Origin: Indioceanicola profundi
GTDB lineage: Bacteria > Pseudomonadota > Alphaproteobacteria > Azospirillales > Azospirillaceae
Assembly (NCBI RefSeq): GCF_003568845.1
Contig: NZ_CP030126.1
Coordinates: 1,391,001-1,455,000 of the forward strand
Length of the DNA stretch: 64,000 nt
Reading direction: 5' to 3'
The notes beneath the pieces were generated by a model. That model was not told where the DNA came from. It was given only the letters and a program-made list of their open reading frames with translations, and did not search any database. Position numbers and translations under genes: made by a program. This document shows, in pieces, positions 38,725-41,420 of this stretch; the first letter of the stretch is position 1; every line of letters begins with the position of its first letter.

Positions 38725-39162
38725 ATGACTGCGCCCGAGGGGCAGAACTGCATAGGGACCGGAGCGCCCCCGCAACGGACGATTCTGGTGGCGGACGATG
38801 AGCCGTTCATCCTCATGTCGTTGGAATTCCTTCTGCTGAAGGCCGGATTCCGGGTTCGCACCGCCTGTAATGGCAAGGAGGTGCTGCAGTCCATGGCGGA
38901 CGAGGCCCCGGATCTGCTCCTCCTTGATGTCATGATGCCGGAGTTGGACGGATTCTCCGCCTGTCAGCAGATCCGCAGCAATCCGGCATGGTCGGACCTG
39001 CCCGTCATCATGCTGACTGCGAAGAGCCGTGAAGTGGACCGCCAGAAAGGCATGGCGCTGGGCGCGACAGACTATGTCGTGAAGCCGTTCTCCACCCGTG
39101 AGCTCGTGGAGAAAGTCCGGGGTCACCTCGACGGCAAGGCCCGGCTGGGAGCAACTGCATGA
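38725..39162 (+). CDS. Single-domain response regulator (CheY-like receiver)
   Basis: 145 residues, one receiver domain and no output domain. Acidic pair D24-D25 (VADDEP), phospho-acceptor D68 (LLLLDVMMPELDG), switch T98 (IMLTAK) and K120 (VVKPF) are all present, so it should be phosphorylatable. A 17-residue N-terminal tail precedes the domain. GGAGGAATT lies before the ATG. It overlaps the next gene by 4 nt (ATGA), so the two are translationally coupled and probably act together. Confidence 0.94.
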   Translation: MTAPEGQNCIGTGAPPQRTILVADDEPFILMSLEFLLLKAGFRVRTACNGKEVLQSMADEAPDLLLLDVMMPELDGFSACQQIRSNPAWSDLPVIMLTAKSREVDRQKGMALGATDYVVKPFSTRELVEKVRGHLDGKARLGATA

Positions 39163-41246
39163 GCGGCCGGCGGCTGCCCGCGATCCTGTTCCTGGGCGCT
39201 GCAGCCATCGTGGCTGTTCTCCTGATCCTCATTCCAGGCTGGGTGGCAGGCAGCGTCGCTCCGGGCGCGGCCGCCGGCTGGGGCAGCGCCCTGATTGCCG
39301 CATGTGCCATTCTGCTCCTGTGGCTGGCTGTGGATCGGCTGATCCTGGGCAAGGCCCGCGCGCTGGCGGCGGAAGCATCCATGGTCACCGTCGGCAACGG
39401 GGCCGAGTTGATCCCCGAACAGTTCGGCCCGATCGCCCCCGTTGCCCACGCCTTCAAGGACATGGCGGGCCGGTTCAGGACCCTGCGCACCGATACCGAC
39501 CGCCGTATCGCCGAGGCTACCCGCCGAGCCGATGAGCAAGCTGGCCAGTTCGCCGCTCTCTTGCGCGATCTGCACGAGGGCGTGCTGGTCTGCAATCTGA
39601 AGCACCAGATCCTTCTCTATAACGAGGCCGCTCGTGCTCTTCTCCAGGCTCCCGAGCTCGGGCTTGGCCGCTCTCTTGCGGGACTTGTGACCCGAGAGCC
39701 CGTCCAGCACACGCTGGAGCGTCTCACCCGCCGCGTTGCCGACGGGCGGCATCATACACATGTGGACGGCACCACCGCCGGCTTCGTGACCAGCACGGCG
39801 GACGGCCGGCTGTTACAGGGGCACATGGCCGTGATCCTGGCGGATGAACAACGTATAACCGGCTATGTCGTAACGTTGGACGATGCCACTCGTGAACTGG
39901 CGACGCTGGCGCGGCGCGACATGCTGCTACGGGCAGCGACTGAGGACGTACGCAGCCCGCTCACCAATCTTGCCGCTGCGGCGGAGATGCTGGAAGCCCA
40001 CCCCGACCTGTCCCCGGATGAGCGGGCGAGTTTCGACAGGATCATCATCTCCGCATCCAGGCAACTGAACGCCAGCCTGGAGAGAATTACCACGGAATAC
40101 CGGGCTGGAATTTCTGCTGCCTGGCCCATGGACGACATTCATACCGGCAATCTCTTCGCGTTGTTGGCAGAGCGGACGGCCCGGCGCGGCGGACCGGAAA
40201 TCACGGTTACCGGCCTGCCCCACTGGCTGCATGGGGACAGCTACAGCCTTGTCGTCCTGCTCTCCCGCCTGTCCAACCGGATCTCGGCAGCGACCGGGGC
40301 AAAGTCGATGGACGTGTCGGCGGAGCCGGACCCCAAGGGACACTTCGTCTATGCCGACCTGTCCTGGAAGGGCGATCCCCTGCCCTCCGATGCGCTGGAC
40401 ACCTGGCGGTCTGAACCTCTCGCCGATGCGCTGGCCGGCCTCACCGTTGGTGACCTTCTGGACCATCATGGCAGCGATATGTGGAGCGAACGGGCGGCCC
40501 AGGGATGTTCGCGCCTGCGTCTGCCGCTGCCGCCCGCCCAGGAAGTCCATGGCCGCCGGACCACCCAGGTCACCCCCCGGCCGGAATTCTTCGATTTCGA
40601 CCTTCTGCATCAGCCCTTGCAGGAAGGGGAACATGGCCGCACACGGCTGAAGGCCTTGTCTTTCGTCGTTTTCGATACCGAAACGACCGGGCTCGCTCCC
40701 AGCCAGGGCGATGAGCTTGTCTCTATTGCCGGCGTCCGGATCATCAATGGCCGCATCCTGACCGGCGAAACCTTTCAGAGTCTGATCAATCCCGGCCGTC
40801 CGATTCCCGCATCCTCCACCGCGATCCACGGGGTCACCGATGCAATGGTCGAAGGCGCGCCGAAGGCGGAGGACGTCCTGCCCCAGTTCCGGGCCTTTAT
40901 CGGCGACAGCGTGCTCGTGGCCCACAATGCCGCTTTCGATCTCAAGTTCCTGAAGATGAAACAGAAGGCGGCGGGCGTTCTGTTCGACGTGCCAGTGCTG
41001 GATACAATGATCCTGTCCCGCCAGATTCAGGGCGAGGATGGTGACCATACGCTTGACGGGATCGCAGCCCGTCTGGGGCTTCCAATCATGGACCGGCATT
41101 CGGCCCTGGGCGATGCGCTGGCGACTGCAGCCATCTTCCTCCATTTCATCGATCTGCTCGAAGAACGCGGGATCGAGACGCTCGACGATGCCATCCGGCG
41201 TTCGAACATGGCCATGGAACTCATCGCGCGAGAGCGGCACTTCTGA
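39159..41246 (+). CDS. Membrane PAS/pseudo-histidine-kinase fused to DEDDh 3'-5' exonuclease
   Basis: 695 residues in an uncommon arrangement. Two transmembrane helices lie at about 7-30 and 41-62, then a HAMP-like/coiled-coil linker to 125 and a PAS domain at about 130-245 (DLHEGVLVCNLKHQILLYNE). A HisKA-like dimerisation helix follows at 250-312, where the usual His of SHELRTPLT is replaced by Glu262 (TEDVRSPLTN). A degenerate GHKL ATPase region at about 325-460 lacks clear N-box and DxGxG residues but keeps the terminal DLLDHHGSDMWSE shape. The C-terminus (500-690) is an exonuclease of the DNA polymerase III epsilon type with D506, E508, D594, H647 and D652 all present. The nuclease looks active and the kinase does not. 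Cytoplasmic output at the inner membrane is predicted. Confidence 0.88.
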   Translation: MSGRRLPAILFLGAAAIVAVLLILIPGWVAGSVAPGAAAGWGSALIAACAILLLWLAVDRLILGKARALAAEASMVTVGNGAELIPEQFGPIAPVAHAFKDMAGRFRTLRTDTDRRIAEATRRADEQAGQFAALLRDLHEGVLVCNLKHQILLYNEAARALLQAPELGLGRSLAGLVTREPVQHTLERLTRRVADGRHHTHVDGTTAGFVTSTADGRLLQGHMAVILADEQRITGYVVTLDDATRELATLARRDMLLRAATEDVRSPLTNLAAAAEMLEAHPDLSPDERASFDRIIISASRQLNASLERITTEYRAGISAAWPMDDIHTGNLFALLAERTARRGGPEITVTGLPHWLHGDSYSLVVLLSRLSNRISAATGAKSMDVSAEPDPKGHFVYADLSWKGDPLPSDALDTWRSEPLADALAGLTVGDLLDHHGSDMWSERAAQGCSRLRLPLPPAQEVHGRRTTQVTPRPEFFDFDLLHQPLQEGEHGRTRLKALSFVVFDTETTGLAPSQGDELVSIAGVRIINGRILTGETFQSLINPGRPIPASSTAIHGVTDAMVEGAPKAEDVLPQFRAFIGDSVLVAHNAAFDLKFLKMKQKAAGVLFDVPVLDTMILSRQIQGEDGDHTLDGIAARLGLPIMDRHSALGDALATAAIFLHFIDLLEERGIETLDDAIRRSNMAMELIARERHF

Positions 41247-41420
41247 TACAGAACCTGCCGGCTGGCGCGAGGCTGTGATTTCCGGGCACCTGTCCGGTGC
41301 TTTGCGTAAGGCCCCGTGCCTTGCATTCCGCGGTTCAGGGCATTAGCTTCCCGGCCAACCGGACGCGATCCCACTCGTGCCCGCCTTCCCGCGCAGCCAC
41401 ATAACGGACAGGTCCGCGGC

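Follow-up and report, generated by a model that had tools for sequence, protein, structure and literature searches.

To our knowledge, very few bacterial pseudo-kinases that read a response-regulator receiver are known, DivL foremost among them. NifL of Azotobacter, which joins a PAS domain to a dimerization and histidine phosphotransfer (DHp) domain and a catalytic and ATP-binding (CA) domain, acts by protein contact and not by phosphotransfer, inhibiting the transcription factor NifA. In Caulobacter, experiments showed that DivL, a pseudo-kinase in which Tyr occupies the His site, reads the single receiver DivK in its phosphorylated form (DivK~P), and that the R553A substitution, three residues past the His site, breaks DivK binding (PMC4211667). 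Histidine kinases of the SLC5/STAC type include CrbS/MxtR, CbrA, and RpuS (PMC9100948). In Pseudomonas putida, the putative RNase_T exonuclease gene pp_0353 shares an operon with a gene for a CBS protein, the promoter of which is bound by ErdR; deleting pp_0353 impairs growth on pyruvate, an effect not seen with acetate or succinate (PMC9927547). Here we describe a gene pair in a 64,000-nucleotide stretch of the Indioceanicola profundi genome (contig NZ_CP030126.1, positions 1,391,001 to 1,455,000; the window), encoding a single-domain receiver and a membrane-anchored protein of 695 amino acids (aa) in which a PAS domain and a pseudo-histidine-kinase are fused to a DEDDh exonuclease. A literature search found no described fusion of a pseudo-histidine-kinase and a nuclease. 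We propose, with about an even chance of being right, that this DivL-like pseudo-kinase gates the exonuclease by reading a receiver that a carboxylate-sensing kinase has phosphorylated.

The kinase module of the 695-aa protein has lost the residues on which kinase chemistry depends. Pfam matched PAS (residues 130-242), HisKA (residues 253-303, at 4.9e-4, which falls below the curated cut-off), and RNase_T (residues 503-660) in this protein and gave no HATPase_c match. Glu262 lies in register with the phospho-acceptor His of HisKA (E-D-V-R-S-P-L versus H-E-L-R-T-P-L), and profile-profile alignment to real kinases confirms this register over 206 to 217 columns. Among 50 full-length homologues, position 262 was Glu in 32, Arg in 9, and other residues in the rest, with His in none. 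No alternative phospho-acceptor at or replacing the site was found near residues 258-267 in these homologues; nearby His residues occurred only in three Burkholderiaceae rows, off the acceptor position. The positions of the N-box Asn are now residues 370 (mostly His, Tyr, or Phe) and 374 (mostly Arg), and that of the G1 Asp is Trp403 in all 50, so the two hallmarks of an active histidine kinase, a phospho-acceptor His and an N-box Asn with a G1 Asp, are both absent. Trp403, Asp360, and His437 of the CA-like domain are nonetheless invariant or nearly so; judging from these alignments, its fold is retained under selection despite the lost ATPase chemistry. The original prediction for this locus had thus correctly placed Glu262 at the phosphorylated His, and the finding that it said would overturn this, a misaligned Glu262 with a true acceptor elsewhere, did not appear in the 50 homologues. 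Its description of a decayed ATPase region is apt for the ATP-binding chemistry but not for the fold.

The exonuclease, by comparison of the same homologues, is probably live. Its five catalytic residues (D506, E508, D594, H647, and D652) stand in DEDDh order within an RNase_T fold and were each present in 50/50 sequences, in keeping with the earlier claim of an intact epsilon-type nuclease; homologues that had lost these residues, which would have spoken against that claim, were not seen. Linker residues R474, P475, F477, D479, and F480 were also each present in 50/50, and the match to short homologues that have no kinase-like part begins at about residue 470. From these patterns we regard the kinase module as a conserved pseudo-kinase and not as a gene in decay. 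The closest matches of the exonuclease domain are the proofreading domains of PolC and DnaQ (2p1j, 1j53), with which it shares the catalytic fold and the DEDDh residues. This likeness would suit a replicative or repair exonuclease, an epsilon subunit with a decorative N terminus; unlike PolC and DnaQ, however, the 695-aa protein is membrane anchored and fused to a signaling module. It is also missing from 20 of 59 genomes of the window's own taxonomic family, and the genome has another DnaQ-like open reading frame (C1:3045230, 229 aa). We rejected the epsilon reading as highly improbable.

We likewise rejected, as very hard to credit, a role in antiphage or nucleic-acid-entry defense at the membrane or in redox sensing. 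DEDDh nucleases are found in defense systems, PAS domains can bind cofactors, and PADLOC returned DEDDh and PDC-S48 matches on the exonuclease domain. However, these profiles are generic and match the DnaQ-like domain only, no defense neighbors were seen at the loci, the conserved neighbors are metabolic, and the distribution is family-wide and genus-coherent. The redox or phage-entry signal suggested earlier therefore found no support. Cys145 of the PAS domain (39591-39593), invariant across a 24-sequence alignment, is a possible cofactor or redox site.

Structure prediction agreed with this domain anatomy. An AlphaFold2 model built with 24 homologues as input reached a mean predicted local distance difference test (pLDDT) score of 82.9 and a predicted template modeling (pTM) score of 0.52; because this pTM and a low whole-chain TM score leave the mutual placement of domains uncertain, we limit our conclusions to single domains. 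The model contains N-terminal helices at residues 6-29 and 35-78, a DHp hairpin (244-280/286-320), a CA-like alpha/beta domain (325-457), and, beyond a stretch of low confidence (465-476), the exonuclease (502-669), thus recovering the PAS, DHp, CA-like, and exonuclease domains. The two membrane helices and PAS domain named in the original prediction are borne out, the helices by hydropathy and AlphaFold2 and the PAS domain by Pfam and AlphaFold2. Foldseek matched the model to WalK, a VicK-like kinase, HK853, DivL (4q20), NifL (9qq6), and PolC/DnaQ exonuclease structures. Like NifL, the protein follows a PAS-DHp-CA plan, whereas NifL has neither receiver nor nuclease. Like DivL, it is PAS linked and alphaproteobacterial, with a non-His residue at the acceptor site and a single-domain receiver that is probably phosphorylated by another protein. 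DivL, however, controls the kinase CckA, whereas the present protein has lost the ATP-site motifs and carries its exonuclease output on the same chain. Glu, not Tyr or Ala, at the His site and the fused nuclease rule out a DivL ortholog; the protein is an analog instead.

The other features expected of a DivL-type receiver-binding protein are a DHp/CA fold without the His and a dedicated single-domain receiver with its phosphorylation residues, and both are present. Receiver residues D24, D25, D68, T98, and K120 are all intact; the gene overlaps that of the 695-aa protein by 4 nucleotides (ATGA), exactly as first reported. A receiver gene lies directly upstream of the nuclease in 35 of 72 loci, all 35 having the kinase-like part, and these adjacent receivers keep the D/D/T/K phosphorylation residues. 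R265, the equivalent of His+3, occurs in 44 of the 50 homologues; its position, that of DivL R553, together with the proven logic of DivL and DivK, is the basis for the mechanism we propose.

A candidate source of phosphate for the receiver is encoded next door in relatives. About 26 loci have, beside the nuclease gene, a kinase of 900-1040 aa with HisKA and HATPase intact and 13 hydrophobic segments, the membrane half of which matches sodium/solute symporters (hhalign 97.5%, E 8e-12; the Paracoccus denitrificans homolog has a weak Pfam SSF match, 4e-4). The symporter-like membrane half and the HisKA/HATPase core place it with the SLC5/STAC kinases (PMC9100948); these drive transcriptional regulators, whereas the adjacent receiver here has no output domain. 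Within the 59 genomes of the window's own family, an ortholog of this kinase (62-83% identity) was present in 37 of the 39 that carry the nuclease and absent from all 20 that do not. The P. denitrificans PD1222 kinase is 55.5% identical over 902 aa to the Azospirillum kinase. The pseudo-kinase aligned with the core of the neighboring kinase over 206 columns (hhalign, E 4.5e-19; 217 columns in global mode). In whole-genome searches with a pseudo-DHp profile, the neighboring kinase was the top kinase in 10 of 10 genomes having it (45-52 bits), the next best reaching no more than 34 bits. By these profile comparisons, the pseudo-DHp and the DHp of the neighboring kinase are homologous.

The window genome itself is one of the two nuclease-bearing exceptions. 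Its three nearest relatives share the order secF-ExoD region, receiver, nuclease, kinase, purQ; in the window no kinase lies between nuclease and purQ, and the gap there gave only chance-level matches to a kinase remnant. No ortholog was found elsewhere in the genome, the best SLC5-type kinases being 45-47% identical, located elsewhere, and at background in the DHp match; the pseudo-DHp profile search reached only 24 bits. The window genome has lost the adjacent kinase gene, so its receiver would have to depend on a different kinase or a small phosphodonor, or else act unphosphorylated. In the other exception, G054, the gene immediately downstream of the nuclease (L139:4975-5856) encodes a 293-aa kinase that lacks the symporter half, apparently through a natural deletion; judged by eye, its His and ATP-site motifs are intact.

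Receiver adjacency tracks an intact pseudo-DHp, albeit through few independent events. Scored with a model built from kinase DHp only, the pseudo-DHp had a median of 24.3 bits at loci with an adjacent receiver versus -1.1 bits at loci with the CA-like part but no adjacent receiver (Mann-Whitney p 2e-4, a statistic that ignores relatedness), and 26 further receiver-less loci had no alignable kinase-like part whatever. Exceptions were L073 (receiver with a weak DHp), L067 (at a contig edge), and L097 (receiver near the kinase, about 6 kb off). On the exonuclease tree, receiver adjacency and DHp state change five times each, and in sampled pairs both traits shift the same way or not at all.

Several observations weigh against receiver control. 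The association just described is not significant on the tree, there being too few independent pairs. In several lineages the nuclease and CA-like part persist alongside an eroded DHp and without a neighboring receiver, and in some the protein is reduced to its membrane and exonuclease parts, which makes receiver control dispensable; in Telmatospirillum and kin (L057, L058, and L072), for example, the pseudo-DHp is partly deleted and no receiver is adjacent, while the CA-like part and exonuclease are kept. Added to these are the missing kinase in the window and the partial sharing of DHp specificity positions, as judged by eye. The DHp likeness may stem from kinase duplication rather than current docking, and both receiver binding and nuclease activity of the 695-aa protein are predictions from sequence. 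The same loci, with several Burkholderiaceae that have a CA-like part without a receiver, would fit an alternative in which the pseudo-kinase is a dimerizing transmitter, membrane and PAS input governs the exonuclease, and the receiver is merely coexpressed, its main target lying elsewhere. PAS and DHp domains commonly serve as signal transmitters, and short forms (L101 and L102) that lack the kinase-like part but have membrane, PAS, and exonuclease parts keep the same neighbors. Against this, the receiver gene is usually nonadjacent where the kinase-like part is missing or the DHp eroded, the pseudo-DHp specifically resembles the DHp of the receiver's likely kinase, and the translational overlap suggests that receiver and nuclease are stoichiometric partners. 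We consider this alternative doubtful but worth keeping in view. The DHp likeness and the receiver's lack of an output domain could also reflect a phosphate sink, the pseudo-DHp sequestering phosphorylated receiver from the SLC5 kinase or another target while the nuclease is constitutive; this would leave the invariance of the five nuclease residues and the linker motif unexplained, and we think it rather unlikely.

In the favored reading, the histidine-kinase module of a membrane-anchored exonuclease would have been repurposed to dock and sense a phosphorylated receiver. The SLC5-type kinase would sense a monocarboxylate, acetate or pyruvate for instance, through its symporter-like half, autophosphorylate, and hand the phosphate to the receiver, which would then dock on the unphosphorylatable, kinase-like pseudo-DHp. 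The resulting change of state, joined with PAS and membrane input, would travel by way of the CA-like domain and RPEFFDFDL linker to activate or inhibit the exonuclease, and altered degradation of a nucleic-acid substrate would shift carboxylate metabolism. Control by conformation rather than phosphotransfer, as first proposed, is supported for the 695-aa protein only: a true kinase is encoded beside the pair in relatives, so phosphotransfer to the receiver probably occurs there. The further suggestion that the receiver is a modulator is probable. Coordinates of the features are collected in Table 1.

Table 1. Features of the receiver-exonuclease locus, in window coordinates
Feature	Position	Strand	Description and basis
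Receiver gene	38725..39162	+	Single-domain response regulator, 145 aa; Response_reg 2.2e-31 (Pfam)
Membrane PAS/pseudo-histidine-kinase/DEDDh exonuclease gene	39159..41246	+	695 aa
Two transmembrane helices	39174..39338	+	Residues about 6-29 and 35-60; hydropathy and AlphaFold2
PAS domain	39546..39884	+	Residues 130-242; PF00989 1.4e-7
Pseudo-DHp hairpin	39888..40118	+	Residues 244-320; hhalign to neighbor kinases, AlphaFold2, genome-wide profile search
Glu262 codon	39942..39944	+	Phospho-acceptor His position; register from alignments
Pseudo-CA (ATPase-like) domain	40131..40529	+	Residues 325-457, ATP-binding motifs lost; hhalign, AlphaFold2, 50-homolog alignment
Linker motif RPEFFDFDL	40578..40604	+	Residues 474-482; R474, P475, F477, D479, and F480 in 50/50 homologs
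DEDDh 3'-5' exonuclease domain	40662..41165	+	Residues 502-669; RNase_T (PF00929) 2.7e-38; PolC exonuclease 2p1j 7.7e-33
Gap between 695-aa gene and purQ	41247..41420	.	174 nt; SLC5-type kinase gene sits here in closest relatives

The search for the same domain order proposed with the original prediction found it widely: in the 39 nuclease-bearing genomes of the window's family, in other alphaproteobacteria, in Burkholderiaceae, and in Desulfobacteraceae-type "delta" genomes. Homologs also occur on plasmids or chromids of Paracoccus, Marivivens, and Cupriavidus and carry database annotations such as "exonuclease domain-containing protein" or "3'-5' exonuclease." On these alignments, the 695-aa protein is a member of a conserved proteobacterial family. 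A DUF294 nucleotidyltransferase was found within the flanks of about 39 loci, and an ActP-like symporter (VC_2705 family) in about 23, many of these with its DUF4212 small subunit. On a Marivivens plasmid (L142:1722-10716), acs, DUF4212, symporter, DUF294, an unknown gene, receiver, and nuclease form one codirectional row; P. denitrificans PD1222, whose nuclease protein has Glu at the His site, has DUF294, one further gene, kinase (PDEN_RS25405), receiver (PDEN_RS25410), and nuclease (PDEN_RS25415) in a row with overlapping genes. The window genome has a DUF4212-symporter-DUF294 cluster at C1:2.64 Mb (L136:5900-9900), 1.2 Mb from the nuclease. These neighbors point to monocarboxylate metabolism. 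Near DUF294 and DUF4212/symporter genes we also observed a conserved protein of ~220 aa without a Pfam or NCBIfam match (L078:10233-10928), recurring in L083, L096, L103, L105, L114, and L116.

At two loci (L112:8062-10320 and L119:6761-8908), a DEDDh exonuclease is fused to a CBS-DUF294-DUF294_C nucleotidyltransferase. This fusion, and the recurrence of DUF294 beside the exonuclease, led us to consider that the CBS-DUF294 enzyme might nucleotidylate a protein (such as the monocarboxylate symporter or acetyl-CoA synthetase) and that the DEDDh domain might erase the mark under control of kinase, receiver, and pseudo-kinase; we find this improbable. The gene company also recalls the exonuclease-CBS gene pair pp_0353/pp_0354 of the MxtR/ErdR (CrbS/CrbR) regulon, in which an RNase_T exonuclease is linked to an SLC5/STAC kinase, an ActP-type symporter, and growth on carboxylates; this likeness, one of domain and gene company, lends support to the physiological setting we propose. 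In contrast, pp_0353 has no reported membrane, PAS, or pseudo-kinase part, and ErdR is a DNA-binding regulator.

What is new in the proposed reading is a pseudo-kinase reader of the DivL kind joined to a carboxylate-linked DEDDh exonuclease. If it is true, a two-component system would control a nuclease by direct protein contact instead of through transcription, rapidly coupling carboxylate sensing to nucleic-acid turnover, and would offer a mechanism for the dependence of normal growth on pyruvate on the putative exonuclease of that P. putida regulon. The genetically tractable P. denitrificans PD1222 has the kinase, receiver, nuclease, and DUF294 gene all in one row.
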